Positions 14,807 to 33,051 of a DNA stretch of 64,000 nt are shown one piece after another. The translations under genes were made by a program, and so were the position numbers. The DNA is from Microcella pacifica. GTDB lineage: Bacteria; Actinomycetota; Actinomycetes; Actinomycetales; Microbacteriaceae. Location: contig NZ_VIKT02000006.1 in the NCBI RefSeq assembly GCF_009371975.2, forward strand, positions 70,422 to 134,421, in the 5' to 3' direction. The stretch's first letter is position 1. Every line of letters begins with the position of its first letter. The notes beneath the pieces were generated by a model. The model was given only the letters and a program-made list of their open reading frames with translations, was not told where the DNA came from and made no database searches.

Positions 14807-16321
14807 ATGAAACTCGAGCTGCGAGGCATCACCAAGCGCTTCGGCGCGCTCGTCGCCAACGACCACATCGACCTCACCGTCGAGCCCGGCGAGATCCACG
14901 CCCTGCTCGGGGAGAACGGCGCGGGCAAGTCGACCCTCATGAACGTGCTCTACGGCCTCTACCAGGCCGAGGAGGGGCAGATCCTCCTCGACGACGAGGT
15001 GCAGCACTTCTCGGGGCCGGGAGACGCCATGGCGGCCGGCATCGGCATGGTGCACCAGCACTTCATGCTCATCCCCGTCTTCACCGTCGCCGAGAACGTC
15101 ATGCTCGGTCACGAGTCCACGCAGTTCGGCGGTCGGCTCGACCTCGAGGCGGCCCGCGCGACCGTGCGCGAGATCTCGCAGCGCTTCGGCTTCGACATCG
15201 ATCCGGATGCCCGCATCGAAGACCTCCCCGTGGGCGTGCAGCAGCGCGTCGAGATCATCAAGGCCCTCTCCCGCAACGCGAACGTGCTCGTCTTCGACGA
15301 GCCCACGGCCGTGCTCACGCCGCAGGAGACGGACGAGCTCATGGAGATCATGCGCCAGCTCAAGGACGAGGGCACCTCGATCGTCTTCATCACCCACAAG
15401 CTGCGCGAGGTGCGCGAGGTCGCCGACCGCATCACCGTCATCCGGCTGGGGAAGGTCGTCGGCGAGGCCGAGCCGACCGCGACCAACGCCGAGCTCGCCT
15501 CCCTCATGGTGGGCCGCGCCGTCGATCTCACCGTCGACAAGGCACCCGCGAAAGCCGGCGACGACGCTCTCATCGTGTCGGGCCTCACGGTCACCGACTC
15601 GATCGGCCAGATCCTCGTCAACGACGTCTCGTTCACGATCCGGAAGGGCGAGATCCTCGCCATCGCCGGCGTGCAGGGCAATGGGCAGACCGAGCTCACC
15701 GAGGCGATCATGGGTCTGCAGTCGCACGTGAGCGGCTCGGTGACGCTCGATGGCACCGAGCTGCTGGAGCGCGGCACGCGGGGCGTGCTCGACGCCGGTG
15801 TCGGGTTCGTGCCGGAGGATCGCACCGAGGACGGCCTCGTGGGCACGTTCACGATCGCCGAGAACCTCATGCTCGATCGCTCGACCGGGGCGCCCTTCGT
15901 GAAGCGCGGCACGCTACAGCTCGCGCACCTCGCCCAGTTCGCGACCGAGCGCGTGGAAGAGTTCGACGTGCGCACGCAGGGCATCACCTCGCCCGCTGGC
16001 AGCCTCTCGGGCGGCAATCAGCAGAAGGTGGTGCTGGCGCGCGAGCTCAGCCGCGAGCTCAGCCTGCTCATCGCGGCCCAGCCCACGCGCGGGCTCGACG
16101 TCGGCTCGATCGAGTTCGTGCACAAGCGCATCGTCGCGACGCGCGATGAGGGCGTGCCCGTCATCGTCGTGTCGACCGAGCTCGACGAAGTGACGGCCCT
16201 CGCCGATCGCATCGCGGTCATGTACCGCGGTCGCATCATCGGCATCGTTCCCGGCGACACCCCGCGCGACGTGCTCGGGCTCATGATGGCCGGAGAGACC
16301 CCCGCGGAGGTGGCGGCGTGA
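14807..16321 (+). CDS. Nucleoside ABC importer ATPase (two fused nucleotide-binding domains)
   Basis: 504 residues with two ABC domains, the layout of RbsA/NupO-type importers. Domain 1 (about 1-240) has Walker [10 protein letters not shown] near residue 37, the signature-like [11 protein letters not shown] and Walker [10 protein letters not shown]. Domain 2 (about 250-500) has a degenerate Walker A ([10 protein letters not shown]), a complete LSGGNQQK signature and a Walker B-like [12 protein letters not shown] in which the usual acidic residue is absent. This asymmetry is normal for the family. ATG 14807 has AGGAAGG upstream. It powers nucleoside import with the two permeases that follow; the first overlaps it by 4 nt. 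Confidence 0.94.
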
Positions 16322-17691
16322 GCAACACCAACGACCCGAAGGACGCGGCGCTCGGCGGCGCGGCGGCCTCCCCCTCGGCGAAGGGGCACCCGGCCGACAC
16401 GGCCGGTGCCGAGCCCCTCACGCCGGAAACGACGGATGCCGCCGGCGCGCAGCACGGTGCGAGCGACGTGCCGCCGCCTCCGCGCAGCACGCAGATCCTC
16501 AAGGAGATCTTCGGCGGCAGCGCCGCGATCTCCGTCCTCGCCGTCCTGCTCGCGCTCATCTTTGGCGGCCTCCTCATCGTCATGACCGACGAGGGTGTGC
16601 AGGAGGCTGCCGGCTACTTCTTCTCCCGCCCCGCCGACACGTTGCGCGCCATCGCCGACGCGGTCGGTGGAGCCTACGCAGCGCTCTTCCGCGGCTCGAT
16701 CTTCAACTACCTGCGCCCCGACGACCTCGTCGCGGCCTTCCGCCCCATCACCGAGACGCTCGCCAACGCCACGCCGCTCATCGCGGCCGGCCTCGGCGTC
16801 GCCCTCGCCTTCCGGGTCGGCCTGTTCAACATCGGTGGCCGTGGCCAGATGCTCATCGCGGCGGCTGCGGCGGGCTACGTCGGCGCGTACATCCCGATGC
16901 CGCCCGTGATCCACCTCATCGTGGCGCTCGTGGTCGGCATCATCGGCGGCGCTCTGTGGGGCGGGCTCGTCGGTCTGCTCAAGGCGCGCACGGGAGCGCA
17001 TGAGGTGATCGTCACGATCATGCTCAACTACGTGGCGTTCTATCTCGTCTCCTACCTTCTGCGTACCGAGGGGGCGCTCCAGGCTCCCGGCCAGAACAAC
17101 CCCAAGAGCGGCCCCATGCTCGAGACCGCGGTGTTCCCCGACCTCCTCGGGCCGCAGTACAACCTCAACCTGGGCTTCATCCTCGTCGTGCTCGCCACGA
17201 TCTACGTCTGGTACCTGCTCAACCGCTCGGCGATGGGCTTCCAGTTTCGCGCCGTCGGCGAAAACCCCCACGCGGCGCGCGTCGCCGGCATCAACGTGGG
17301 CAGCGTCTACGTCAAGGTCATGCTCATCGCGGGAGCCCTCGTCGGCCTCGCGGGCGTCTACCAGGTGCTCGGCAACTTCACCGGCGGCTTCGCCGCCGGC
17401 CTCGACGCAGGCATCGGGTTCGACGCCATCACCGTCGCCCTGCTGGGCCGCTCGAAGCCCTGGGGAGTGTTCTTCGCGGGCATCCTCTTCGGTGCTCTGA
17501 AGGCCGGCAGCTACACGATGCAGGCGGCCGAGGGCATTCCCGTCGACATCGTCCTCGTCGTGCAGTCGTTCATCGTGCTCTTCATCGCCGCACCGCCCCT
17601 CGTGCGTGCGATCTTCCGATTGCCGACCCCGGATTCCTCGTTCCGCTGGCGAGTCCCGTCGATCTCCCGCACGAAGGAGGCGGCCCGATGA
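16318..17691 (+). CDS. Nucleoside ABC importer permease 1 (NupP-like)
   Basis: 457 residues. A polar, low-complexity N-terminus of about 60 residues precedes some eight to ten membrane segments. The conserved block [26 protein letters not shown] near residue 165 and the [13 protein letters not shown] cytoplasmic loop near 315, which contacts the ATPase, are typical of the BPD_transp_2 permeases of nucleoside importers. GTG start overlaps the ATPase stop by 4 nt, and the stop overlaps the next permease by 4 nt. Confidence 0.93.
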
Positions 17692-18968
17692 GCGCCGTGA
17701 CCACGACCCCCGCCCCGTCGACCGCTGAGAGCACGTCCGTGACCGTGCGCAGCTGGAAGGCGCCCATCGCGTTCGCGATCTTCACCGTCATCGGGGCGGC
17801 GCTCTTCCTCGGCCTCGGCCGCGGCGGCGACACCACCTACCGCCTCAGCGATGGCCGCGACGCCATCCAGTTGCCCGCGCTCATCCTGCCCTCCTATGCG
17901 ACCGGCATCGTCGCGGTGATCCTCATGGCGGCTGCGGCCGTCGGCGCGTTCCTGCTCGTGCGCGCGGCCCGCAAGGTACCGCTGTGGCTCACGACCGTGT
18001 TCGCGCTCGTCTTCCTGCTCGGGTTCCTCACGTGGGCCGCAGCAGGGGCGACCGTCCCCCTCGTCGGGCTCCTCGCCGGTGCGCTCACCGTGAGCACGCC
18101 GCTCATCTTCGGAGCGCTCGGCGGCGTGATCTCCGAGCGCGTCGGCGTCGTCAACATCGCGATCGAGGCGCAGCTGCTCGCGGGCGCGTTCGTCGCCGCG
18201 ATGATCGGCACGCTCACGGGGCAGCCCATGCTCGGTCTGCTGGGAGCGATGATCGCCGGGGCGCTCGTGTCGGTCATCCTCGCCTCGTTCGCCATCAAGT
18301 ACCTCGTCGACCAGGTGATCGTCGGCGTCGTGCTCAACGTTCTCGTCATCGGTCTGACGAGCTTCTTCTACTCGACGTACATGGTCGACAACCCGGAGCT
18401 CTTCAACTCACCAGACAAGTTCGAGAGGGTCGCGATCCCGCTGCTGAGCGACATCCCGGTGCTCGGGCCGATCCTGTTCAACCAGACGCTCATCGTCTAC
18501 ATCATGTTCGTGCTCGTGCCCACCGTGTGGTTCGCGCTGTTCAAGACCCGCTGGGGTCTGCGCCTGCGCTCCGTGGGCGAGCACCCGAAGGCCGCCGACA
18601 CCGTCGGCATCAACGTCAAGGCCACGCGGTTCTGGAACGTCCTCCTCGCGGGTGCCATCGCCGGTGGTGGAGGTGCGTTCTTCACCCTCGCGGCCGTCGG
18701 CTCCTTCGCCAAGGAGATGACCAACGGTGCGGGCTTCATCGCCCTCGCGGCGGTCATCTTCGGTCGATGGGATCCGATTCGGGCGACGCTCGCGGCGCTG
18801 CTGTTCGGCTTCGCGACGAACCTGCAGTCGACGCTCTCGATCGTCGGGTCGCCGGTGCCGAGCGAGTTCATGCTCATGCTGCCGTACATCGTCACGATCT
18901 TCGCGGTCGCCGGGCTCGTGGGCATGTCCCGCCCGCCAGCGGCCTCCGGCAAGCCGTACATCAAATAG
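17688..18968 (+). CDS. Nucleoside ABC importer permease 2 (NupQ-like)
   Basis: 426 residues with about ten membrane segments, including an N-terminal pair that is longer than in many homologues. The core contains SERVGVVNIAIEAQLLAGAF near residue 145 and the ATPase-contact loop VGEHPKAADTVGIN near residue 295. Together with permease 1 it forms the heterodimeric channel. The start overlaps the preceding gene (ATGA); cdd follows after 12 nt. Confidence 0.93.
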   Translation: MSAVTTTPAPSTAESTSVTVRSWKAPIAFAIFTVIGAALFLGLGRGGDTTYRLSDGRDAIQLPALILPSYATGIVAVILMAAAAVGAFLLVRAARKVPLWLTTVFALVFLLGFLTWAAAGATVPLVGLLAGALTVSTPLIFGALGGVISERVGVVNIAIEAQLLAGAFVAAMIGTLTGQPMLGLLGAMIAGALVSVILASFAIKYLVDQVIVGVVLNVLVIGLTSFFYSTYMVDNPELFNSPDKFERVAIPLLSDIPVLGPILFNQTLIVYIMFVLVPTVWFALFKTRWGLRLRSVGEHPKAADTVGINVKATRFWNVLLAGAIAGGGGAFFTLAAVGSFAKEMTNGAGFIALAAVIFGRWDPIRATLAALLFGFATNLQSTLSIVGSPVPSEFMLMLPYIVTIFAVAGLVGMSRPPAASGKPYIK

Positions 18969-18980
18969 GGGGAGGCCACC

Positions 18981-19391
18981 ATGGCTGACATCGACTGGGA
19001 TGGCCTTCGCGAGGTCGCCCTCGACGCGATGACGAAGGCCTATGTGCCGTACTCGGAGTTCCCCGTCGGCGTGGCCGCGATCGTCGACGACGGCCGCGTG
19101 ATCGCAGGGTGCAACGTCGAGAACGCCTCGTACGGCCTCACGCTGTGCGCCGAGTGCGCTCTCGTCTCCACCCTGCACATGACCGGCGGCGGTCGTCTCG
19201 TCGCCTTCACGTGCGTCGACGGTGACGGCGGTGCGCTCATGCCCTGCGGGCGCTGCCGCCAGCTGCTGTACGAGCACTCCGCCGAAGGCATGCTGCTGGA
19301 GACCGTCTCCGGCATCAAGACCATCGACGAGGTGCTGCCCGACGCCTTCGGCCCCCGCACCCTCGAGACCTATCGCTCAACCCACGACTAA
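18981..19391 (+). CDS. cdd: Cytidine deaminase
   Basis: 136 residues, the size of tetrameric cytidine deaminases, which convert (deoxy)cytidine to (deoxy)uridine. The zinc site is CAE at residues 56-58 (Cys56 ligand, Glu58 catalytic) and CGRC at 89-92. NVENASYG near residue 45 is the ribose-binding segment. Position right after the nucleoside importer and before deoA means imported cytidine is deaminated and then phosphorolysed. Confidence 0.96.
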   Translation: MADIDWDGLREVALDAMTKAYVPYSEFPVGVAAIVDDGRVIAGCNVENASYGLTLCAECALVSTLHMTGGGRLVAFTCVDGDGGALMPCGRCRQLLYEHSAEGMLLETVSGIKTIDEVLPDAFGPRTLETYRSTHD

Positions 19392-19405: not shown

Positions 19406-20701
19406 ATGGCCCTTGAGCCGTTCGACGTCGTCGACCTCATCCGCACCAAGCGCGACCGCGGCACCCTGACGACGGCCCAGATCGACTGGATGGTCGACGC
19501 CTATACCCGTGGCTACATCGCCGACGAGCAGATGTCGGCCATGACGATGGCGATCTTCCTCAACGGCATGGAGCGCGAGGAGGTCAGCGCGCTCACCCTG
19601 GCGATGGTCGCCTCCGGCACGCGCCTCGACTTCTCGGGCCTCGACAAGAAGACCACAGACAAGCACTCGACCGGCGGGGTCGGCGACAAGATCACGCTGC
19701 CCCTCGCGCCGCTGGTCGCCTCGTTCGGCGTCGCCGTGCCGCAGCTCTCCGGCCGCGGGCTGGGCCACACCGGGGGCACGCTCGACAAGCTCGAGAGCAT
19801 CCCGGGCTGGCGTGCCAGCATCACGGTCGATGAGATGATGCGGCAGCTCGACGATGTGGGCGCCGTCGTGTGCGCGGCCGGTTCGGGCCTCGCTCCCGCC
19901 GACGGCAAGCTCTACTCGTTGCGCGACATCACCGGCACTGTCGAGTGCATTCCGCTCATCGCCTCGTCGATCATGTCGAAGAAGATCGCCGAGGGCACCG
20001 CCGCGCTCGTGCTCGACGTGAAGTTCGGCTCTGGCGCGTTCCTGAAAGACATCGAGAAGTCGCGCGAGCTCGCCCAGGTCATGGTGCGGCTCGGCGAGGA
20101 CGCCGGGGTGGCGACGCGCGCCGTGCTCACCAACATGAACGTGCCGCTCGGTCTCGCGATCGGCAACGCCAACGAGGTGCGTGAATCGGTCGAGGTGCTC
20201 GCGGGCGGCGGGCCTGCCGACGTGGTCGAGCTCACGGTCGAGCTCGCGCGGCACATGCTCGAGCTCGCGGGCGTCACCGATGCCGACGTCGAAGCGGCGT
20301 TGCAGGACGGCCGCGCGATGGATGCCTGGCGCGGCATGATCGCGGCGCAGGGCGGCGACCCGGATGCTCCGCTCCCCGTCGCCCCGGAGTCCCACACCGT
20401 GCACGCCGAGACCTCAGGGGTGCTCGTCGAGCAGGAGGCCCTGCCCTTCGGCATCGCCGCGTGGCGCCTCGGCGCCGGGCGTGCGCGCAAGGAGGACCCG
20501 GTCGACCACAGCGCAGGCATCGACCTGCACGCCAAGCCGGGCGACACGGTCGAGGCGGGGCAGCCGCTCTTCACGATGCTGACCTCCGACGCGGGCCGGT
20601 TCGCCCGCGCGCTCGAGGCGCTCGAGGGCGCCTACCGCATCGGCTCGGCGGGCGACGAGGTGCACACGGGCGGCCCGCTCATCGCGGGCGTCGTCGAGTA
20701 G
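19406..20701 (+). CDS. deoA: Thymidine (pyrimidine-nucleoside) phosphorylase
   Basis: 431 residues. The family signature is visible as the phosphate-binding SGRGLGHTGGTLDKLE near residue 115, and the KHSTGGVGDK loop lies near residue 88. The C-terminal PYNP domain contains the lysine-rich GAGRARKEDPVDH segment. The enzyme splits thymidine or uridine with phosphate to base plus (deoxy)ribose-1-phosphate. It ends the import-deamination-phosphorolysis operon. A short GC-rich hairpin follows at 20732-20744. Confidence 0.95.
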   Translation: MALEPFDVVDLIRTKRDRGTLTTAQIDWMVDAYTRGYIADEQMSAMTMAIFLNGMEREEVSALTLAMVASGTRLDFSGLDKKTTDKHSTGGVGDKITLPLAPLVASFGVAVPQLSGRGLGHTGGTLDKLESIPGWRASITVDEMMRQLDDVGAVVCAAGSGLAPADGKLYSLRDITGTVECIPLIASSIMSKKIAEGTAALVLDVKFGSGAFLKDIEKSRELAQVMVRLGEDAGVATRAVLTNMNVPLGLAIGNANEVRESVEVLAGGGPADVVELTVELARHMLELAGVTDADVEAALQDGRAMDAWRGMIAAQGGDPDAPLPVAPESHTVHAETSGVLVEQEALPFGIAAWRLGAGRARKEDPVDHSAGIDLHAKPGDTVEAGQPLFTMLTSDAGRFARALEALEGAYRIGSAGDEVHTGGPLIAGVVE

Positions 20702-20771: not shown

Positions 20772-22193
20772 ATGCCCTCGAGGACCGCAGCGCAGCGCCC
20801 GACTCCGCACCACCCGTCGCTCACGAGGCGCACGGTCGCCGGCTACGCGATCGGCTCGCTCGGCACGGGAGGGTTCGGCACTCTGCCCGGCCTCGTGCTC
20901 CTCTACTACATGACCGATTCGCTCGGCATCACCGCGCTTGTCGCGGGGCTCATCGTCACTCTCGCCAAGCTGTGGGACGTCATCATCGACCCTGTCATCG
21001 GCGCGCTGAGCGACCGTATGCGCCAGCGCTCGGGAACCCGCCGCACGCTCATGCTCGTCGGCGCGCTGAGCCTCCCGGTGTTCTTCGCGGCGACCTTCGC
21101 CGTGCCGGCTGAGCTCACCGGCAGCCTTGCCGCGCTGTGGGTGCTCATCGCCTTCGTGCTCTCCACCACCGCCTTCAGCCTCTTCCAGGTGCCCTATATC
21201 GCCCTCCCTGTCGAGATCTCCGGCGACTACGACGGCCGCACGCGCCTCCTCACCTGGCGCGTCGTCGTCCTGACAGTCGCGATCCTCCTGTTCGGCGCGG
21301 GAGGCCCCGTGCTGCGCGGTCTCGGCGACGACCCGCGGCTCGGCTACCTCCTCATGGGCGTGGTCGCGGGGCTCGTCATCTCCCTCGGGCTCACGGCCTC
21401 GTCGTTCACCGCGCCTCGTGGCGTCGCGGTCGTCGAGCCGGCCCCGGCGAGGGTCGCCGACGCGTATCGTCAGGCGATCGTCGCGCTGCGGGAGAGCCGG
21501 CCGCTGCGGCGGCTGCTCGGCGGCTTCGTGCTGCAGGCCCTCGCGACGGGTCTCATGCTCGCCGCCGCGCAGTACGTCGCCACGTGGGTTCTCGTGAGCG
21601 AGGACGCTGTGACGCTCCTCTTCCTCGCGCTCATCGCGCCGGCCGTGCTCGTCACCCCCGTGTGGGGTCGTCTCGCCCGGCGCTTCGGCAAGGAGCGCAG
21701 CTACCTCGCCGCGTCGCTGCTGTTCGGCGTCGCGGCGCTCAGCATCGTCGTCGCGGTGATCGCCCCCGGCCCGTGGATCTACGTGCCCGTCGGCATCGCG
21801 GGAGCCGCCTACGCGGGCATGCAGGCGCTTCCGCTCGCGATGCTGCCCGACGTCATCGCCCACGACGGTCGACGGCGGGGCCGGGAGCGCGCCGGCGTCG
21901 TGAGCGGCGTGTGGACGGCGGGGGAGACCGCGGGCATGGCGCTCGGCGCGACCCTCCTCGCGCTCGTCCTCGGGGCGACCGGCTACCTCGAGTCGACGGC
22001 GGACGTCGTCGTCGTGCAGCCCGCGAGTGCGACGCTCGGCATCGTCATGGCGTTCAGCGTGATCCCGGCCGTGCTCGTGGCGCTGAGCATCCTGGTTCTG
22101 CGTGGCTACGGACTGAGCCGCAGCGACATCGACGTCCCTGCGCCGTCGGGCGTCCGTGCGAGCGATGGTGGCGAAGCGGGGAGCGCGCGATGA
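20772..22193 (+). CDS. MFS transporter, GPH (glycoside/cation symporter) type
   Basis: 473 residues with about twelve membrane segments. The loop after segment 2, KLWDVIIDPVIGALSDRM near residue 70, is the MFS_2/GPH signature shared with melibiose-type symporters. The middle loop and the second half (LPDVIAHDGRRRGRERAG near 365) are also typical. Substrate is not readable; the neighbouring nucleoside genes make a nucleoside or sugar moiety possible. The last 4 nt overlap the start of the PLP-enzyme gene, so the two probably serve one pathway. Confidence 0.88.
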   Translation: MPSRTAAQRPTPHHPSLTRRTVAGYAIGSLGTGGFGTLPGLVLLYYMTDSLGITALVAGLIVTLAKLWDVIIDPVIGALSDRMRQRSGTRRTLMLVGALSLPVFFAATFAVPAELTGSLAALWVLIAFVLSTTAFSLFQVPYIALPVEISGDYDGRTRLLTWRVVVLTVAILLFGAGGPVLRGLGDDPRLGYLLMGVVAGLVISLGLTASSFTAPRGVAVVEPAPARVADAYRQAIVALRESRPLRRLLGGFVLQALATGLMLAAAQYVATWVLVSEDAVTLLFLALIAPAVLVTPVWGRLARRFGKERSYLAASLLFGVAALSIVVAVIAPGPWIYVPVGIAGAAYAGMQALPLAMLPDVIAHDGRRRGRERAGVVSGVWTAGETAGMALGATLLALVLGATGYLESTADVVVVQPASATLGIVMAFSVIPAVLVALSILVLRGYGLSRSDIDVPAPSGVRASDGGEAGSAR

Positions 22194-23698
22194 CCGGTGC
22201 TGGGCCGCAGCCGCGCGAGATCCTCGCCGAGCTGGAGGGACTGCGGGCCGGTGACGCGCCCACGCACGGCGGTCGAGTGCTCTCGTACGTCTACGACTCT
22301 GGCTCGGCCGAGCTCGATGAGCTCGCGGCCTCCGCCATCCGTCTGTTCCAGTCCGTCAACGGGCTCGACCCGACCGTGTTCCCCTCCGTCGCCCGACTGG
22401 AATCCGATCTCGTCGCCTTCGGTCGGAGCATCACGCACGGTGACGACGAGGTCGTCGGCACGGTGACGACGGGCGGCACCGAGAGCTGCCTGCTCGCCGT
22501 CAAGACCGCGCGCGACCTGTGGCGCCGGGAGAATGGCGAGCACGCGCGCCCGCGGCTCGTCGCGCCGACGACGGCCCACGCGGCCTTCCACAAGGCCGCG
22601 CACTACTTCGGCCTCGAGCTCGACCTCGTGCCCGTGGATGTCGCCACCGGCGCCGTGCGCGCCGACGACATCATCGCGAGGCTCGGCCCCGATGTCGCGC
22701 TCGTCGTCGTCTCGGCGCCGTCGTATCCGCACGCGGCACTCGACCCCATCGCGGAGGTCGCCGCGGCCGCCCGCGAGCACGGGCTCTCGTGCCACGTCGA
22801 CGCGTGCATCGGCGGGCTGGCGCTGCCGTGGTGGCCCGACGTGGCACCGTGGGACTTCCGCCTGCCCGGCGTCACGAGCATCTCCGCCGACCTGCACAAG
22901 TACGGCTACGTGCCCAAGGGTGCGAGCCTCCTCCTGCACCGCGATCGGCGGCGCCGAGACGCGCAGTACTTCGCGACGACGGGCTGGCCGGGGTACCCCG
23001 TGGTCAATCCCACGATGCTGGGCTCGCGCTCGGCGGGCGTCCTGGCGGCGGCCTGGGCGATCACCCGGCGGCTGGGAGACGAGGGATACGCGGAGCTCGT
23101 CGCGCGCACGCTCGAGGCGACCAGAGCTCTGCGTGGCGCGATCGAGAGCATCGACGGCCTCACGATCCTCGGCGAACCGGTGGGGCCGCTCTTCGCGGTC
23201 GTCACCGATGCGGGCCGACCGGCGGAGGAGCGCGTCGACCCGCACCGCTGGGCGGACGTGGTGCGGCGCCACGGGTGGCTGCTGCAGCAGCAGCCGGGGT
23301 TCACGCAGTCCGACGGCACGCTGCTGCCGCGCAGCACCCACGTCACGGTGACGCCCGTCACCGCCGGGGTGCTCGAGCCGCTCGTGGCCGCTCTGCGCGA
23401 GGCGGCCGACGAGGTTCGCGGCCTGCCCCCGGCCGACGCCGCGCCCGTGCTCGAGGCGCTCCCCGCCGAGCTGCTCGCGAGTCTCGCGAGTGCCGGCTCG
23501 GCCGACGCCGACCTCGACCCCGCCGTGCTCTCCAGCGTCCTCGCGCAGGCGGGCATCGGGCCCGACGGCTCGCTGCCCGAGGAGGCGGCCGGGCTCACGG
23601 CGCTCATCGAGGCGTTGCCGCCCGCACTCGTCGAGCAGGCGCTCATCGGCCTGCTCGGCTCACTCGTCGACCCGCCGGCGACGGGCGCGGGCCGCTAG
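22190..23698 (+). CDS. PLP-dependent decarboxylase/lyase-like enzyme
   Basis: 502 residues. The fold-type I core resembles group II decarboxylases and sphingosine-1-phosphate lyase: GTVTTGGTESCLLAVKTA near residue 90, HVDACIGG near 200 (cofactor-contact Asp), and SADLHKYGYVPKGAS near 232 with the PLP-binding lysine. The HKYGY-x-PKG context is characteristic of the phosphosphingosine lyase/tyrosine decarboxylase-like branch. About 90 C-terminal residues after the core are alanine/leucine-rich and unlike the usual family end. The ATG overlaps the symporter stop by 4 nt. Substrate unknown; an amino-alcohol phosphate or amino acid is plausible. Its stop codon overlaps that of the convergent nucleoside hydrolase. 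Confidence 0.82.
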   Translation: MTGAGPQPREILAELEGLRAGDAPTHGGRVLSYVYDSGSAELDELAASAIRLFQSVNGLDPTVFPSVARLESDLVAFGRSITHGDDEVVGTVTTGGTESCLLAVKTARDLWRRENGEHARPRLVAPTTAHAAFHKAAHYFGLELDLVPVDVATGAVRADDIIARLGPDVALVVVSAPSYPHAALDPIAEVAAAAREHGLSCHVDACIGGLALPWWPDVAPWDFRLPGVTSISADLHKYGYVPKGASLLLHRDRRRRDAQYFATTGWPGYPVVNPTMLGSRSAGVLAAAWAITRRLGDEGYAELVARTLEATRALRGAIESIDGLTILGEPVGPLFAVVTDAGRPAEERVDPHRWADVVRRHGWLLQQQPGFTQSDGTLLPRSTHVTVTPVTAGVLEPLVAALREAADEVRGLPPADAAPVLEALPAELLASLASAGSADADLDPAVLSSVLAQAGIGPDGSLPEEAAGLTALIEALPPALVEQALIGLLGSLVDPPATGAGR

Positions 23699-24642
23699 AG
23701 CTCCACCGCGCCGATGCGCTCGAGGGCGTCGATCACGAGGTCCCAGAAGCGGTCGGCGTCGAGGTCCATCGCGACCTGGGTGGGGCAGCTCTCCGGCGCC
23801 GGTGCCCGCAGGTCGGCCACCGTCATGCCGAGGGTGAGCGTGCCGGTGAGCTCGACGTCGAGCGGGGCCCGCACCGTGCGCACGATGCTCGGGTCGATGA
23901 CGTAGGCCACGGCGCAGGGGTCGTGCACGGGAGGGTGGTCGAAGCCCTGGGCGTCCTGGTACGAGTGCGCGAAGAACTCCAGCAGCTCGCCCGTGAAGCG
24001 GGCCGGGCCGGTGCCGATCGCGGCGATGCGGGCCGCGACCTCGTCGGTCGCGAGTGCCTGGTGCGTGACGTCGAGCCCGACCATCGTCAGCGGCCAGCCC
24101 GCCGTGAACACGATGTGCGCGGCCTCCGGGTCGATGACGATGTTGAACTCGCTCGTGGCGCTCCAGTTGCCGATGTGCACGCCGCCGCCCATGAGCACGA
24201 CCTGCTTGACCCGCTCGACGATGCGCGGCTCGCGCCGCACGGCGAGCGCGATGTTGGTGAGGGCGCCGGTCGGCACGAGCGTGACGGTGCCGGGCTCGTG
24301 CGCCATGACGGTGTCGATGATCAGGTCGACGGCGTGGCGGCCGTCGAGCTCGATGGCCGGTTCGGGCAGCACGGGCCCGTCGAGCCCCGACTCCCCGTGG
24401 ATGTCGGGAGCCGTCTCGACCTCGCGCACGAGCGGACGCTCCGACCCGCGGGCGAACGGCACCGAGTCGAGGCCGATGACGCGGGCGACGGCGAGCGCGT
24501 TGCGCGTCACCTTCTCGATCGTCTGGTTGCCCATGACGGTCGTGACGGCGAGCAGCTCGATGTCGGGCGAGCCGTGGGCGAGCATGAGGGCGACCGCGTC
24601 GTCGTGGCCGGGGTCGCAGTCCAGGATGATCTTCTCAGGCAT
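23695..24642 (-). CDS. Inosine-uridine-preferring nucleoside hydrolase family
   Basis: 315 residues, standard for the family. The N-terminal calcium-binding motif is DCDPGHDDA near residue 8. VLMGGGVH near 150 and the SEFNIVIDPEAA segment near 165 form the active site, with HDPCAVAYV near 240 supplying the last aspartate. It hydrolyses ribonucleosides to ribose and base in the cytoplasm. It is divergent from the SAHH-like gene across 62 nt holding back-to-back -10 boxes. The TAG stop lies in CTAG 23695-23698, shared with the convergent gene. Confidence 0.93.
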   Translation of the reverse strand: MPEKIILDCDPGHDDAVALMLAHGSPDIELLAVTTVMGNQTIEKVTRNALAVARVIGLDSVPFARGSERPLVREVETAPDIHGESGLDGPVLPEPAIELDGRHAVDLIIDTVMAHEPGTVTLVPTGALTNIALAVRREPRIVERVKQVVLMGGGVHIGNWSATSEFNIVIDPEAAHIVFTAGWPLTMVGLDVTHQALATDEVAARIAAIGTGPARFTGELLEFFAHSYQDAQGFDHPPVHDPCAVAYVIDPSIVRTVRAPLDVELTGTLTLGMTVADLRAPAPESCPTQVAMDLDADRFWDLVIDALERIGAVEL

Positions 24643-24665: not shown

Positions 24666-24673
24666 CATATATG
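24666..24673. promoter_or_regulatory. Possible operator between divergent promoters
   Basis: CATATATG is a perfect 8-bp palindrome inside an AT-rich island (24660-24675) that stands out from the surrounding GC-rich DNA. It lies between the two divergent -10 boxes, in a position to control both. The IclR regulator encoded by the same operon (25976-26644) is the obvious candidate to bind here; this is inference. Confidence 0.35.
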
Positions 24674-24692
24674 AAAGCGTCTTGCACCTGTG

Positions 24693-24704: not shown

Positions 24705-25979
24705 ATGAGCACGGACAGCAGCACGAGCAGACCCGCCCGCATCAACCACGGCGCAGCGGAGGCGCCGGACTCGGCGGCGCTCGCCGCCCGCGGCGCTGCC
24801 CGCATCGACTGGATCCGCTCGCGCATGCCCCTGCTCGCCGAGGCGCGCGACGCCCTCGCGGCGAGCCGACCCTTCGACGGCCACCTCATCGGCATGAGCC
24901 TGCACCTCGAGCCCAAGACGGCGGTGCTGCTCGAGACCCTCCAGACCGGCGGCGCCGAGATCGTCGCGACCGGCAACCACGGCTCGACGCAGGACGACGT
25001 GGTCGCCTACCTGCGCACCCTCGGCATGACCGTGCACGGGCGGCGCGCCGACACCCTCGACGACCACCACGCGAACGTCGCCGCCGTCGATGCGGCGCGG
25101 CCGAGCATCCTGCTCGACAACGGGGCAGACCTCGCCGCGCTCGCCGCCGCTCGCGTCGACCCCGCGGCCGTCTCCGGGGGAGACCCGACGGGCGGCACCG
25201 GCATCATCGGCGGAACGGAGGAGACGACGAGCGGAGGGCTGCGGCTGCGCGCCGAGCTTGCGCAGAGCATCCCGTTCCCCATGCTCGTCATCAACGACTC
25301 GCGCCTCAAGGCGATCGGCGAGAACAAGCACTCCGTCGGCCAGTCCGTCGTCGAGAGCCTCATGCGCATCACCAACCTGCGCCTCGCCGGCCGACGCTTC
25401 CTCGTCGCCGGCTACGGCTGGTGCGGTCGCGGCATCGCGCAGTACCTGCGGGCGATGGGCGGCAAGGTCGCCGTCGCCGAGATCGACGAGCTCGTCGCCT
25501 TCGAGGCCGCGTGGGACGGCTACCGGGTCGGCCCGATCGAGGAGCTCGCCGAGTGGGCGGAGGTCGTCGTCACCGCGACCGGGCATCCCGACGTCGTCAC
25601 ACCCGCCGTGCTCGACCGGCTCGCCGACGGCACCGTGCTCGCCAACGCCGGTCACGTGCCCTGGGAGATCGACGTGGCCGCCCTGTACGCGCGGTCCACC
25701 GCGCGCACGGTGCTCGACGAGGCGATCGAGCGCGTGGACCTGCCAGGTGGGCGCCACGTGATCCTGCTCGCCGAGGGTCGCATGGTCAACCTCGCCGGGC
25801 GCGAGCCCAAGGGCAACTCGCTCGAGGCGATGGACCTCGGCTTCCTGCTGCAGGCGCTCTCCCTGGAGCGTGTCGCGACGAGCGCGGCATCGCTCGCTCC
25901 CGGCGCCCAGCCGGTGCCCGACGACATCGATCGCGATATCGCCAGACGGATGCTCGCCGTCATGGGCGCGGACCGGTGA
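24705..25979 (+). CDS. Divergent S-adenosylhomocysteine hydrolase-like protein
   Basis: 424 residues, archaeal-type length without the C-terminal lysine-tyrosine tail of long SAHH. Kept: HLEPKTAVLLETL (His67), NHGSTQDD (91-98), GGTEETT with Glu173-Thr174, Lys202 and Asn207, the NAD motif GYGWCGRG (236-243), His317 in NAGHVPWEID, and EGRMVNLAG. Changed relative to human SAHH as I remember it: Asp131 becomes Asn139 (LLDNGADL), Asp190 becomes Glu206 (GENKHS), and the GHP motif with His353 is replaced by EPKGNS with an insertion. These residues hold the adenosine part, so NAD-dependent oxidation/elimination on another nucleoside-like substrate seems more likely than the classical reaction. Coupled by GTGA to an IclR regulator and divergent from a nucleoside hydrolase. 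Confidence 0.8.
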   Translation: MSTDSSTSRPARINHGAAEAPDSAALAARGAARIDWIRSRMPLLAEARDALAASRPFDGHLIGMSLHLEPKTAVLLETLQTGGAEIVATGNHGSTQDDVVAYLRTLGMTVHGRRADTLDDHHANVAAVDAARPSILLDNGADLAALAAARVDPAAVSGGDPTGGTGIIGGTEETTSGGLRLRAELAQSIPFPMLVINDSRLKAIGENKHSVGQSVVESLMRITNLRLAGRRFLVAGYGWCGRGIAQYLRAMGGKVAVAEIDELVAFEAAWDGYRVGPIEELAEWAEVVVTATGHPDVVTPAVLDRLADGTVLANAGHVPWEIDVAALYARSTARTVLDEAIERVDLPGGRHVILLAEGRMVNLAGREPKGNSLEAMDLGFLLQALSLERVATSAASLAPGAQPVPDDIDRDIARRMLAVMGADR

Positions 25980-26644
25980 CGCAGCCCGGCTACGCGGTAC
26001 CGGCGCTCGACAAGGCGCTCGACATTCTCGAGCTGCTCGCCGACGAGCCAGCGGGGCTCGCGCAGTCGGAGATCGCCGAGGCCACGGGGCGCAGTGTCGG
26101 TCAGATATTCCGCGTGCTCGTCTCCCTCGAGAGGCGCGGCTACCTCGTGCGCGAGCGTGGCGGTCGGTACCTGCTCGGCACGCGGCTGTTCGACCTCGCT
26201 CACCGGCATGCGCCCCTGCGGGGCCTGGAGGCCGTGGCGCTGCCGATCATGCGCGAGCTCGCCGACAGCGTGCGGCAGTCGTGCAACCTCGCCGTGCTCG
26301 AAGGCGACCGCGTACGGGTCGTCGCGCAGGTGGAGTCGCCCGCTGACTTCGGCTACCGGGTGCGGGTCGGCGCGCTGTTCGACGTCGCGGGCACCGCGAC
26401 GGGGGAGGTGCTCGCGGGCGACCGCGACGAGCTCGTGCGGGCCGACGCTCTGCAGCCCGGCATCACCGACGTCGTGGCCGCCGTGCGCGGTGCTACCGGC
26501 GCGACGATCGCCGCGCTCACCGTGCCGTACGTGAGCACGAGCTTCAGCACCGTCGCGCACACCCAGGTCGTGCAACAGGCTCGCAGTGCCGCCCGAGACA
26601 TCTCGCAGGCACTCGGGTGGATACCGGGGGTCACAGGGAGGTAA
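25976..26644 (+). CDS. IclR-family transcriptional regulator
   Basis: 222 residues. An N-terminal winged helix-turn-helix (about 8-65: ALDKALDILELLADEPAGL, then SEIAEATGRSVGQIFRVLVSLERRGYL) is followed by an IclR effector-binding domain (about 80-215). The GTG at 25976 overlaps the SAHH-like stop by 4 nt; the frame is open much further upstream but that part is only the antisense-like shadow of the preceding gene. It probably senses a substrate or product of the SAHH-like or nucleoside hydrolase reaction and acts on the divergent promoter region 24643-24704. Confidence 0.9.
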   Translation: MTQPGYAVPALDKALDILELLADEPAGLAQSEIAEATGRSVGQIFRVLVSLERRGYLVRERGGRYLLGTRLFDLAHRHAPLRGLEAVALPIMRELADSVRQSCNLAVLEGDRVRVVAQVESPADFGYRVRVGALFDVAGTATGEVLAGDRDELVRADALQPGITDVVAAVRGATGATIAALTVPYVSTSFSTVAHTQVVQQARSAARDISQALGWIPGVTGR

Positions 26645-26663: not shown

Positions 26664-27788
26664 ATGACAACGGCGACGCAGAACCTCCTTCCCGGCACCG
26701 ACCTCGCCCTGGAGGCGCTGCCGAAGGTGTCGCTGCACGACCACCTCGACGGCGGCCTGCGCCCCGCGACGATCGTCGAGCTCGCGGCCGAGATCGGCTA
26801 CGAGCTTCCCGCGGGCGCCACCGACGCCGAGTCGCTCGGCGAGTGGTTCGCCACGCAGGCCAACTCGGGGTCGCTCGTGCAGTACCTCACGACGTTCGAC
26901 GTCACGATCGCCGTCATGCAGACCCGCGACGCCCTCGTGCGCGTCGCCCGCGAGTTCGTCGAAGACCTGGCGGCGGATGGCGTCGTGTGGGGCGAGATCC
27001 GCTGGGCCCCCGAGCAGCACCTGCAGCAGGGCCTGAGCCTCGACGAGGCAGTCGAGGCCGTGCAGCAGGGCCTGGACGAGGGCGTCGAGGCGGCGCGCGG
27101 CGCCGGCACGAGCCTCCGCGTCGGCCAGCTGGTCAGCGCCATGCGCCACGCCGATCGCGGCCTCGAGATCGCCCAGCTCGCGCTGCGTCACCGCGACACG
27201 GGCACGGTCGGCTTCGACATCGCGGGCGCCGAAGCAGGGTTCCCGCCCTCTCGTATGCGCGACGCGTTCGAGCTGCTCGCCGACGAGTTCTTCCCCGTCA
27301 CGATCCACGCCGGCGAGGCGGACGGCATCGAGAGCATCCGCGGGGCGCTGCGCGACGGCCACGCCCTGCGCCTCGGCCACGGCGTGCGCCTGCTCGAAGA
27401 CATCACGCTCGTCGACGAGGGCGAGATGACGCGCGCGAGCCTCGGCCGCATCGCCGAGTGGGTGAAAGACCGCGGCATCGCGCTCGAGACGAGCCCCAGC
27501 TCGAACCTGCAGACCGGCGCGATCGCCGCGTGGGGCGACGCGATGGAGGACCACCCGCTCGACCTGTTCACCCAGCTCGGGTTCCGCGTCACCGTCAACA
27601 CCGACAACCGCCTCATGAGCGCCACGACCCTCAGCCGCGAGCTGCGCCTCGTCGCCGAGACCTTCGACTACGACCTCGACGACATCCTCGCCCTGCAGCT
27701 GAACGCCGCCCAGGCGGCCTTCCTCCCCGTCGAGGACCGCGAGGCGCTCATGGACACGATCATCGCCGGCTTCGAGGAGCACGCATGA
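26664..27788 (+). CDS. add: Adenosine deaminase
   Basis: 374 residues. The metal site is HDH at residues 25-27 (in KVSLHDHLDG), then HAGEADG near 213 with the catalytic Glu, HGVRL near 238 and the C-terminal NTDNRLMS near 312, where the Asp binds metal. The Asn after that Asp replaces the NTDDP of eukaryotic enzymes, as I recall also for actinobacterial homologues. It converts adenosine and deoxyadenosine to inosine forms, the substrates of the PNP encoded at 32215. The last 4 nt overlap the start of a PTS IIA gene, an unusual partnership. Confidence 0.95.
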   Translation: MTTATQNLLPGTDLALEALPKVSLHDHLDGGLRPATIVELAAEIGYELPAGATDAESLGEWFATQANSGSLVQYLTTFDVTIAVMQTRDALVRVAREFVEDLAADGVVWGEIRWAPEQHLQQGLSLDEAVEAVQQGLDEGVEAARGAGTSLRVGQLVSAMRHADRGLEIAQLALRHRDTGTVGFDIAGAEAGFPPSRMRDAFELLADEFFPVTIHAGEADGIESIRGALRDGHALRLGHGVRLLEDITLVDEGEMTRASLGRIAEWVKDRGIALETSPSSNLQTGAIAAWGDAMEDHPLDLFTQLGFRVTVNTDNRLMSATTLSRELRLVAETFDYDLDDILALQLNAAQAAFLPVEDREALMDTIIAGFEEHA

Positions 27789-28237
27789 GTCTGCCCTCCC
27801 TCGCCGACCGCGCCATCGTGCTGCAGGCGCACGCCGCCGACTGGCGCGCCGCCGTGCGCCTGGCCGGCGACGCCCTCGTCGACAGCGGCTGCACGACCGC
27901 CGAGTACACGGAGGCGATGCTGCGCCTCGTGGAGACCCACGGCCCGTACATCGTCATCGCGCCCGGCCTCGCTCTGGCGCACGCGCGCCCCGGCCCCGAG
28001 GTGCGCCAGGACGGACTTTCGGTCGTCACGCTCGCCGAGCCGGTCGAGTTCGGTCACGCGCACAACGACCCGGTCTCCGTCGTCATCGGCCTCGCCGGGG
28101 TCGCCGCCGACGCCCACCTGAGCGCCGTCGCCGACCTCGCGAACGCCTTCAACGACTCGGCGGCCATCCAGGCGCTCGCCCGAGCGACGAATCGTGAGGA
28201 TGCTCGCGCCATCCTCGAAGGCCGCCGAGTGTCATGA
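27785..28237 (+). CDS. PTS EIIA protein, mannitol/ascorbate (UlaC) type
   Basis: 150 residues, a single EIIA domain of the PTS-EIIA type 2 family. The phosphorylated histidine is His66 in GLALAHARPG, the standard context; a VVIGLAGVAADAHLS stretch follows near residue 98. It would take phosphate from HPr and pass it to the EIIB encoded next. ATG 27785 overlaps add by 4 nt. No EIIC permease follows, and the transcript seems to stop after EIIB. Confidence 0.9.
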   Translation: MSLPSLADRAIVLQAHAADWRAAVRLAGDALVDSGCTTAEYTEAMLRLVETHGPYIVIAPGLALAHARPGPEVRQDGLSVVTLAEPVEFGHAHNDPVSVVIGLAGVAADAHLSAVADLANAFNDSAAIQALARATNREDARAILEGRRVS

Positions 28238-28277
28238 CGCCGCGTGTCGTGATGCCGCGGGTCAGGGAGGTGTCGGC

Positions 28278-28550
28278 GTGAAGATCGTCGCCATCTGCGG
28301 TGCCGGCATCGGCTCGAGCGGCATCCTCAAGGTGAACGCCGAGCGCGTGCTGCAACGGCTCGGCGTGACCGCGACCGTGGTCGCCGCTGACATCGACTCG
28401 GTCGCGCGCGTCGCCGCCGACGCCCAGGTGATCCTCACGAGCGAGGAGTTCGTCGAGGCGATCGGGCGCACGCACGCCGACGTCGTCGTCGTGCACAACT
28501 ACTTCGACACCGATGAGCTCACGCAGAAGCTGACCGACGCGGTCGGGTAG
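28278..28550 (+). CDS. PTS EIIB protein, lactose/ascorbate type
   Basis: 90 residues, a lone EIIB domain. The phospho-cysteine is Cys7 in ICGAGIGSSGILKVN, the P-loop-like motif of UlaB/SgaB and galactitol EIIB proteins. The GTG at 28278 is chosen because GGGAGG lies 7 nt upstream and the domain starts at once; 40 nt separate it from the EIIA gene. A membrane EIIC subunit is absent from this window. Confidence 0.9.
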   Translation: MKIVAICGAGIGSSGILKVNAERVLQRLGVTATVVAADIDSVARVAADAQVILTSEEFVEAIGRTHADVVVVHNYFDTDELTQKLTDAVG

Positions 28551-32214: not shown

Positions 32215-33051
32215 CTACAGTTCGGCCACGATGCGCGCGAGGAGGGCGCTGATCACCGGCTCAGCATCCCGACCTGCCTCGATGACCTCCTGGTGACTGA
32301 GCGGGTTCGGCGAGATGCCCGCCGCGAGGTTCGTGATGAGCGAGAGGCCCAGCACCTCCATACCCGCCTGGCGCGCGGCGATCGCCTCGAGCGCCGTCGA
32401 CATGCCCACGATGTGGCCGCCGAGCGTCTTCGCCATCTGCACTTCGGCGGGAGTCTCGTAATGCGGCCCGCGGTTCTGCACGTAGACGCCCTCGTCGAGG
32501 TCGGCGTCGACCGTGCGGGCGAGGTCGCGCAGCCGTTGCGAATAGAGGTCGGTCAGGTCGATGAAGGTGGCCCCCTCGAGGGGCGAGTCGCCCGTGAGGT
32601 TCAGGTGGTCGCTGATGAGCACGGGAGTGCCGGGGGTCCAGTGCGGCTTGATGCCTCCGGCGCCGTTCGTGAGGATCATCGTGGATGCTCCCGCCGCGGC
32701 CGCCGTGCGCACCGAGTGCACGACGCGCCGAACGCCGTGGCCCTCGTAGTAGTGGGTGCGGGCGCCGATGACGAGGGCGCGCTTGCCGCTCGGCAGCAGG
32801 ATCGAGCGCAGGGTGCCGACGTGGCCCTCGAGCGCGGGCTTCGAGAAGCCGGCGATGTCGGAGGCGGCGATCGTGTGCGTCGTCTCGCCGATGAGGTCGG
32901 CGGCCTTCGCCCAGCCGGAGCCGAGGGTGAGGGCGATGTCGTGGCGCTCGACGCCGGTAACCTCGGCGAGTTGCGCGGCAGCCTGGGCGGCGACCTCGAA
33001 CGGGTCGGCGGAGGGGTCGTCGAGAGGGTTGTGCGGTGCGTGGTGGGACAT
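32215..33051 (-). CDS. deoD: Purine nucleoside phosphorylase (trimeric PunA type)
   Basis: 278 residues, the size of high-molecular-weight trimeric PNPs. LTLGSGWAK near residue 43 is the phosphate loop, GRTHYYEGH (here GARTHYYEGHGVRRVVHSVR) near 95 contacts phosphate and ribose, and the LTNGAGGI and MSTALEAIAA segments follow near 130 and 215. It phosphorolyses inosine and guanosine to base plus ribose-1-phosphate, completing the route from adenosine through Add. TACCAT lies 6 nt upstream of ATG 33051. The symbol follows the M. tuberculosis naming. Confidence 0.93.
   Translation of the reverse strand: MSHHAPHNPLDDPSADPFEVAAQAAAQLAEVTGVERHDIALTLGSGWAKAADLIGETTHTIAASDIAGFSKPALEGHVGTLRSILLPSGKRALVIGARTHYYEGHGVRRVVHSVRTAAAAGASTMILTNGAGGIKPHWTPGTPVLISDHLNLTGDSPLEGATFIDLTDLYSQRLRDLARTVDADLDEGVYVQNRGPHYETPAEVQMAKTLGGHIVGMSTALEAIAARQAGMEVLGLSLITNLAAGISPNPLSHQEVIEAGRDAEPVISALLARIVAEL

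Follow-up and report, generated by a model that had tools for sequence, protein, structure and literature searches.

What does a protein related to S-adenosylhomocysteine hydrolase (SAHH) do among genes of nucleoside catabolism, when two aspartates found in the active site of its canonical relatives are replaced? This question is raised by a gene at 24705..25979 (+ strand, ATG start, 424 amino acids) of the window, that is, the whole stretch of DNA analysed (64,000 nucleotides). The encoded protein has the SAHH fold over its full length (Pfam AdoHcyase_NAD, 1.6e-39; AdoHcyase, 1.1e-18) and carries the NAD motif GYGWCG, Asn139 and Glu206, the base motif HxExK, and a PKGNS loop. With the TIGR00936 model (ahcY, NCBIfam) it reached 330.2 bits, below the cut-off of 497.6, while with NF004005 (adenosylhomocysteinase) it reached 355.5 bits, above the cut-off of 275. 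The latter cut-off is also passed by AgmF, an NAD-dependent dehydratase of angustmycin biosynthesis that belongs to the SAHH family and uses a free nucleoside as substrate (PMC8599513).

Alignment confirmed the residues that a sequence-only reading of this gene had described as kept, namely His67, Glu173-Thr174, Lys202, Asn207 and His317. The 3'-oxidation residues of AhcY (Glu156, Thr157, Lys186 and Asn191) correspond to Glu173, Thr174, Lys202 and Asn207, all of them conserved together with GYGWCG, and His55 and His301 on the 5' side of the AhcY site correspond to His67 and His317, kept in all 45 proteins compared (the window protein and 44 relatives). The changes named in that reading, Asn139, Glu206 and EPKGNS, are present as well, but the loop is a two-residue insertion plus a His-to-Asn change (GN-S for GH-P) and not an insertion alone. 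Asn139 and Glu206 replace Asp131 (C4' proton) and Asp190 (2'-OH) of AhcY, respectively, in 45/45 proteins, whereas Asp is found at both positions in 20/20 comparison rows (N/E and D/D types hereafter). The correspondence was checked via AgmF, whose mutated residues carry published numbers (PMC8599513): an AgmF-like protein of locus L173 has H56, D129, K184, D188 and H299 at exactly these numbers, and its D129 and D188 align with N139 and E206. The two positions had been taken for lost adenosine-site residues and are indeed changed, but, in the mouse SAHH structures, both touch the ribose and not the adenine: the Asp at position 139 contacts the 5'-OH and gives a proton to C4', and the Asp at position 206 contacts the 2'-OH (PMC4647836). 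In these structures, main-chain atoms of the GHP histidine bind adenine N6 and N7 (PMC4647836). Regarding the base pocket, the canonical HxTxE(Q) adenine motif and the GHP loop are missing, and HLEPK (H67-x-E69-x-K71) and EPKGNS are found instead. The HxExK motif, which was absent from the sequence-only reading, is the fingerprint of SAHHs that prefer inosine or S-inosylhomocysteine (SIH), in which Glu binds N1 and Lys binds O6 (PMC10978960).

To establish how far this signature is conserved, one-genome-per-species contigs were scanned with six short peptide patterns. The scan gave the 44 relatives (59-84% identity to the window protein). Nine of these come from Mesorhizobium and one from Aestuariivita; the other 34 are mostly Microbacteriaceae or more broadly labelled MAGs, with one labelled Acidobacteria. 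N139, E206, P368, G370, N371 and S372 are invariant in 45/45, as are H67, E69, K71, D138, E173, T174, K202, N207 and H317, and position 369 is Lys in 43 and Arg in 2. A pseudogene or drift is ruled out by this 45/45 signature, the open frame and the pLDDT of 89 of the predicted model. Among 128 rows (duplicates included), 90 were N/E, 37 were D/D and one, the degenerate protein of locus L060, was D/E; K71 was found in 90/90 and E69 in 89/90 of the N/E rows. The E/K pair of the base motif also occurs in six D/D rows, two of which (T. maritima and one L120 protein) have the His of HxExK, so the pair is older than, or independent of, the N/E change. Further positions that part 31 N/E from 20 D/D proteins include T89, G112, V195, I196, V211, M360, G379, L382 and L387. 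In a second survey of 66 rows, 54 were D/D and 12 were N/E, the latter including 3 reference rows.

The counts of wider spread are lower bounds, as scoring was confined to the best 4 to 6 candidates of each genome and members of one subclade (C, see below) score lower. An N/E protein was found in at least 6 genomes of a 392-genome sample of the presumed Streptomyces genus (390-416 bits); at least 4 of the 394 genomes of a class-level sample scored above 500 bits, the window's own genome among them, and at least 3 of the 296 genomes of a phylum-level sample scored above 480. Matches below 390 bits whose signature was read (28 rows of the phylum sample and 26 loci of the class sample) were all D/D. 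No match was found in a plasmid collection at E 1e-60. A search of open-licence literature found no paper describing an N/E-type SAHH subfamily.

The sequence-only reading had proposed a tree as a check, and in it the window protein is not placed among canonical SAHHs. In two trees built without the signature columns and the loop, the N/E proteins form one separate clade with support of 100/100 (33 of 55 rows and 31 of 51 rows), outside which are the T. maritima SAHH, archaeal-type and canonical actinobacterial SAHHs, and AgmF. Near-identical rows and most archaeal-type SAHHs were dropped beforehand, and the 51-row tree was also built without L060; the 55-row tree kept it and the N/E clade was unchanged. 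Four lines were distinguished inside the clade. Subclade A includes the window protein and those of Microbacteriaceae, Mesorhizobium and Aestuariivita; B has LGNS or RGNS in the loop, C has GNP, and D, a single protein (L121), has GHA, C and D being without the loop insertion. The trees do not firmly resolve how B, C and D branch, and the branch leading to D is long. Judged by its defining residues, the N/E type is a distinct and conserved subfamily of the SAHH superfamily and not a canonical SAHH.

Among solved proteins, those nearest in sequence are SAHHs of archaea, T. maritima and Synechocystis, and SAHHs of the T. maritima, Pyrococcus furiosus and Methanococcus type are among the top sequence and fold matches of the window protein. 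The N/E type resembles these enzymes in fold, short C-terminus, HxExK motif and NAD site, and the H, K, N and E-T residues are also common to both. However, the T. maritima SAHH (38.5% identity to the window protein), the only one of this type that was read, has D/D and GHP, whereas the N/E type has N, E and mostly GN(S/P). The SIH hydrolase fingerprint is present in 45/45 and the catalytic Asp pair of T. maritima is absent. An orthologue of AgmF was also considered and ruled out: the AgmF mutants H56A, D129A, K184A, D188A and H299A are inactive (PMC8599513), and the essential D129 and D188 are N139 and E206 in the window protein. Unlike the N/E type, AgmF keeps both aspartates and HxTxE, belongs to a biosynthetic cluster and groups with D/D enzymes in the tree, although the AgmF-like L173 protein does have, like the N/E type, Asn in place of the GHP histidine. 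Its gene lies in an angustmycin-type cluster (L173:5135-10147) beside genes like those of a LOG-type phosphoribohydrolase, PRPP synthetase, allulose-6-phosphate epimerase and APRT; no agm-type genes were found among the 8 window proteins scanned. PenD and PenG of the pentostatin/ara-A cluster are SAH-hydrolase homologues assigned to the ara-A pathway, where the role given is SAH/adenosine conversion (PMC12648386), and they are likened to the N/E type by description only, as homologues of this family in an arabinonucleoside pathway.

The surroundings of the gene agree with what had been read from the sequence, that is, pairing with an IclR regulator, a divergent nucleoside hydrolase and add nearby. 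The gene of the IclR-family regulator (25976..26644, +; 222 amino acids, presumed GTG start at 25976) shares 4 bp with the SAHH-like gene and is followed after 19 bp by add, encoding adenosine deaminase (26664..27788, +; NF006847, 537 vs 412 bits), while the uridine-preferring nucleoside hydrolase UriH is encoded divergently (23695..24642, −; NF052221, 506 vs 450 bits). The window IclR protein is short (222 amino acids versus 227 to about 310 in the loci compared, starts being uncertain), and its best match to the effector-domain model spans only positions 9-72 of 174. Directly after add, a domain and family-model scan identified a PTS EIIA-2 domain protein (27785..28237, +) and a PTS IIB protein (28245..28550, +; start uncertain), an ascorbate-like pair (27785-28550). 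Further upstream, at 14807-18968, there is what we take by resemblance to be an ABC importer, with an ATPase (14807..16321, +), whose assignment to the nucleoside type also considers its position, and two permeases (16318..17691 and 17688..18968, both +). It is followed by a presumed cytidine deaminase (18981..19391, +), of which a distant Mesorhizobium homologue was model-scanned, and by a thymidine/pyrimidine-nucleoside phosphorylase (19406..20701, +), whose homologue at L024:4841-6202 matches NF004490 (615 vs 269 bits). A presumed purine nucleoside phosphorylase lies at 32215..33051 (−). The stretch between deoA and UriH (20772-23698) encodes a symporter of the MFS_2 type and a PLP-dependent decarboxylase resembling MfnA/GAD.

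The neighbours of the SAHH-like gene in the 44 other loci, some of which end at contig ends, were searched by tblastn with those of the window. An IclR homologue follows the gene in 42/44, UriH is present in 30/44 (it is missing from 4 of the 34 non-proteobacterial loci), add in 30/44, thymidine phosphorylase in 28/44, and PTS IIA and IIB in 28/44 and 26/44, respectively. ABC ATPase matches were obtained in 32/44, 6 of them distant (37-38%) and in Mesorhizobium. Six of the 9 Mesorhizobium loci have, divergent from the pair of SAHH-like and IclR genes, a sodium:solute symporter and a cytidine-deaminase-like gene (TIGR01354, 103 vs 114 bits; NF004064, 97 vs 74 bits). For subclades B, C and D, the neighbourhood clues are one clear case each. 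In L057 (B), one run holds an ABC importer whose ATPase is of the PotA type, then the SAHH-like gene, then the genes of a PfkB/ribokinase-like kinase and a nucleoside hydrolase; in L172 (C), adenosine deaminase is immediately downstream (559 vs 412 bits); and in L121 (D), the SAHH-like gene is divergent from those of a Gfo/Idh dehydrogenase and an SDR, as well as from importer-like genes, one of which encodes a weakly BMP-like binding protein. The neighbours of the other B and C members (L056, L123, L124, L125, L122, L169, L170, L171 and L175) are uninformative. The regulator gene near L056 and L057 (B) and L121 (D) is presumably of the LacI type. Across the subclades, therefore, the neighbours repeatedly include functions for taking up nucleosides, deaminating them and cleaving their glycosidic bond, and the case is firmest for A. 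These data confirm that the observation behind the sequence-only reading was real and coherent, the N/E subfamily being tied to nucleoside catabolism. Besides these genes, an HpcH/HpaI-type aldolase gene was found in a subclade C locus (L122:6157-6942, Pfam), and another, presumably of the same type, at L058:1-488 (subclade C), about 8.5 kb away.

Concerning regulation, a palindrome, CATATNNNAAN7TTNNNATATG, is conserved upstream of the SAHH-like gene. The best match per locus, sought in the 300 bp before the position equivalent to residue 25, has no more than 3 mismatches among the 14 fixed bases in 37 of 45 loci, versus 0.14 expected from crude two-base shuffles. The window has a degenerate copy, the presumed IclR operator, at 24666..24692 between UriH and the SAHH-like gene, with 3 of the 14 fixed bases mismatched. 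The actinobacterial and Mesorhizobium palindromes have a common frame and a different interior. In 12 whole genomes searched with at most 2 mismatches, a site was present in 9 and none in the window's genome, whose own copy has 3. The exact sites were those at the SAHH-like gene, in G685 and in G684 and G388, which look like one assembly; the other matches had 1-2 mismatches, versus 0-2 control matches. A 2-mismatch palindrome is common to two genomes of one genus (G208:C12:492198-492224 and G348:C28:1316-1342) and another was found in G685, so the palindrome may have a second genomic target besides the SAHH-like gene. Control of the locus by the paired IclR protein, acting at this palindrome, is probable.

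A second, canonical SAHH in the same genome was another point that the sequence-only reading had proposed to look for, and this copy was found at C61. It is a long form with HxTxQ, D/D and GHP that shares the superfamily and the 3'-oxidation residues with the window protein but is 34% identical to it over 387 positions; the window protein is thus ruled out as the only SAHH of its genome. Of 199 sampled genomes from the window's family, 43 matched the N/E profile at 500 bits or more. The signature was read in 32 of these and was N/E in all, at least one (G229) belonging to subclade B. A canonical SAHH is present in 36/43 (best E 5e-168 or lower), and in the remaining 7 none was found at E 1e-40. 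Two of the seven have LuxS and MTAN above the cut-offs, but in G219 (87% complete), G261, G277, G338 and G388, the last three being of one genus, neither LuxS (PF02664) nor MTAN (TIGR01704) was found. By the models used, therefore, the N/E type is the only SAHH-family protein found in these five genomes, the weightiest finding against a role entirely unconnected with SAH. On the other hand, of 13 genomes of the same family searched with the window protein, two were without a match and in two others the matches reached only 5e-4 to 9e-4, among the best 9 or fewer candidates per genome. The absence of SAHH is consequently not rare in this family. In 9 genomes reached via named loci (Mesorhizobium, Mycetocola, Aestuariivita, Microbacterium, Salinibacterium and Agreia), some of them apparently the same assemblies as among the 43, a canonical SAHH was found in 8, Salinibacterium being the one without.

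The sequence-only reading had concluded that the gene encodes an NAD-dependent oxidation/elimination enzyme for a nucleoside or thio-nucleoside other than SAH, and this interpretation is partly supported. The oxidation of a nucleoside other than SAH agrees with the separate clade, the genome's own canonical SAHH, the nucleoside-catabolic setting and the shortfall in TIGR00936, and in this genome neither the tree nor the second SAHH refuted it. The words "elimination" and "thio-nucleoside" are not supported in that form. The Asp of the C4' proton is Asn in every member read and the D129A change abolishes AgmF activity (PMC8599513), so that, of the chemistry, the N/E type has most likely lost 5' elimination. 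On the other side, His67 and His317, which handle the 5' leaving group, are retained in the N/E rows read, so that some 5' chemistry may persist, and Glu206 or a histidine could take over proton transfer.

We propose that N/E-type enzymes work on the sugar of an imported nucleoside and not on SAH, and this explanation is given a probability of about 0.55. That they are nucleoside-sugar enzymes with a main reaction other than SAH hydrolysis seems slightly more probable. Considering the residues that are kept, the bound NAD+ would oxidise the 3'-OH, with K202, N207, T174 and E173 in their usual roles. The 3'-keto intermediate would not be driven into 4',5'-elimination, since Asn139 stands for the Asp that moves the C4' proton, and Glu206 would act on C2' instead; NADH would finally reduce the ketone and the product would be released as a nucleoside. 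A 3'-ketone acidifies both C4'-H and C2'-H, and the loss of the C4' relay together with a lengthened acid at C2' would lead to C2' chemistry, either epimerisation or base expulsion. A nucleoside product is favoured because the nucleoside hydrolase beside the gene in A and L057 is then easier to understand: the product would be cleaved by this hydrolase or by a neighbouring phosphorylase. The substrate base would probably be a 6-oxopurine or a 4-oxopyrimidine, as HxExK suggests, made by the neighbouring adenosine or cytidine deaminase.

In its most specific version, the enzyme would be a C2'-epimerase converting arabino- into ribonucleosides. Adenosine deaminase accepts ara-A and cytidine deaminase accepts ara-C, and the resulting 6-oxo and 4-oxo arabinosides are poorly used by phosphorylases and hydrolases. 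Classical isotope work on ara-A reportedly found exchange at C2' and C3'. The change of the C2' acid, the neighbouring hydrolase, this logic of deaminases and arabinosides, and the presence of PenD and PenG in the ara-A pathway favour C2' epimerisation; against it, nothing in the data singles out C2' or the arabino configuration, and the review naming PenD and PenG credits them with SAH/adenosine conversion instead of epimerisation (PMC12648386), so that this particular reaction is put forward tentatively and with the odds against it. A little more doubtful is the complete scenario in which the N/E clade consists of NAD-dependent C2'-epimerases, Asp131 to Asn and Asp190 to Glu having moved the 3'-keto proton chemistry from C4' to C2' and let bacteria use or disarm arabinonucleosides. 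The latter would be ara-U and ara-hypoxanthine, derived from ara-C and ara-A after deamination, and the ordinary nucleosides formed would then be cleaved by the neighbouring hydrolase. A uracil-specific version, in which the loop insertion would occupy the imidazole part of the pocket, is no more than an idea, C and D being without the insertion.

Several other explanations should be weighed against the action on a nucleoside sugar. The N/E type could still hydrolyse SAH or SIH, with Asn139 and Glu206 tolerated, and serve to salvage either of them. It has the SIH-preferring motif (PMC10978960), the 5'-side His67 and His317 are kept in the N/E rows read, SIH could come from the adenosine deaminase encoded next to it in A and C, the cut-off of NF004005 is passed (355 vs 275), and the five genomes without canonical SAHH, LuxS and MTAN by the models used would fit. 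Nevertheless, we consider it unlikely: mouse SAHH uses the Asp equivalent to Asn139 to protonate C4' (PMC4647836), D129A kills AgmF (PMC8599513), 36 of the 43 N/E genomes, the window's included, retain a canonical SAHH, SAH salvage would not explain a nucleoside hydrolase and ribokinase-like neighbours, and 4 of 13 genomes of the family have no or only weak matches anyway among the 9 or fewer candidates scored in each.

The same kept residues and the new acid at C2' would also suit an NAD-dependent nucleosidase, in which 3'-oxidation is followed by removal of the C2' proton by Glu206 and expulsion of the base from C1'. The release of bases from 3'-keto nucleosides is an abortive reaction of SAHH, which counts for this option; yet such an enzyme would be redundant beside the nucleoside hydrolases of A and L057, and its keto sugar would need another enzyme, whereas clear oxidoreductase neighbours are found only in D and one C locus (L058), which makes it quite improbable. 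Slightly less probable still is a reaction on a nucleoside with another 5' leaving group, or a 5'-dehydration. AgmF demonstrates that the fold can be recruited for other nucleosides (PMC8599513) and the AgmF-like L173 protein also has Asn for the GHP histidine, but AgmF has both aspartates, groups with the D/D enzymes and is inactive as D129A or D188A (PMC8599513). Finally, an IclR gene adjoining in 42/44 loci could suggest a catalytically weak nucleoside sensor serving the regulator, which is very hard to reconcile with the invariance of H67, E69, K71, D138, N139, E173, T174, K202, E206, N207 and H317 in 45/45 and with the presumed LacI-type regulator near L056, L057 and L121.

If the action on a nucleoside sugar is correct, a highly conserved enzyme of methyl metabolism would have been turned to a different reaction by a matched change of two residues, and proteins currently labelled adenosylhomocysteinase by NF004005 would be given a function. 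If the epimerase version holds, this would be an SAHH-type enzyme for arabinonucleosides, bearing on the C2' inversion in ara-A biosynthesis, on how environmental bacteria degrade antiviral and anticancer nucleosides, and on biocatalysis. In any event, the automatic AhcY annotation of N/E-type genes is not to be trusted.

Two further SAHH-like forms appeared in the surveys. One is a line found at L120:8532-11059, L126:8963-10126, L055 and L059:9031-10581, in which the E/K base motif and D/D are kept, both 5'-side histidines are lost (I/V and G) and the loop is GNP. In L120, the copy without these histidines is in tandem with a full-site copy, and the surroundings in L120 and L126 include importer genes, an amidohydrolase of the nucleoside/guanine-deaminase type and a gene that we take to be of the LacI type. 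The other is the degenerate protein of L060 (D/E), an order-level relative that has Ala at the Lys202 position, with a second partial SAHH match at the end of the same contig.
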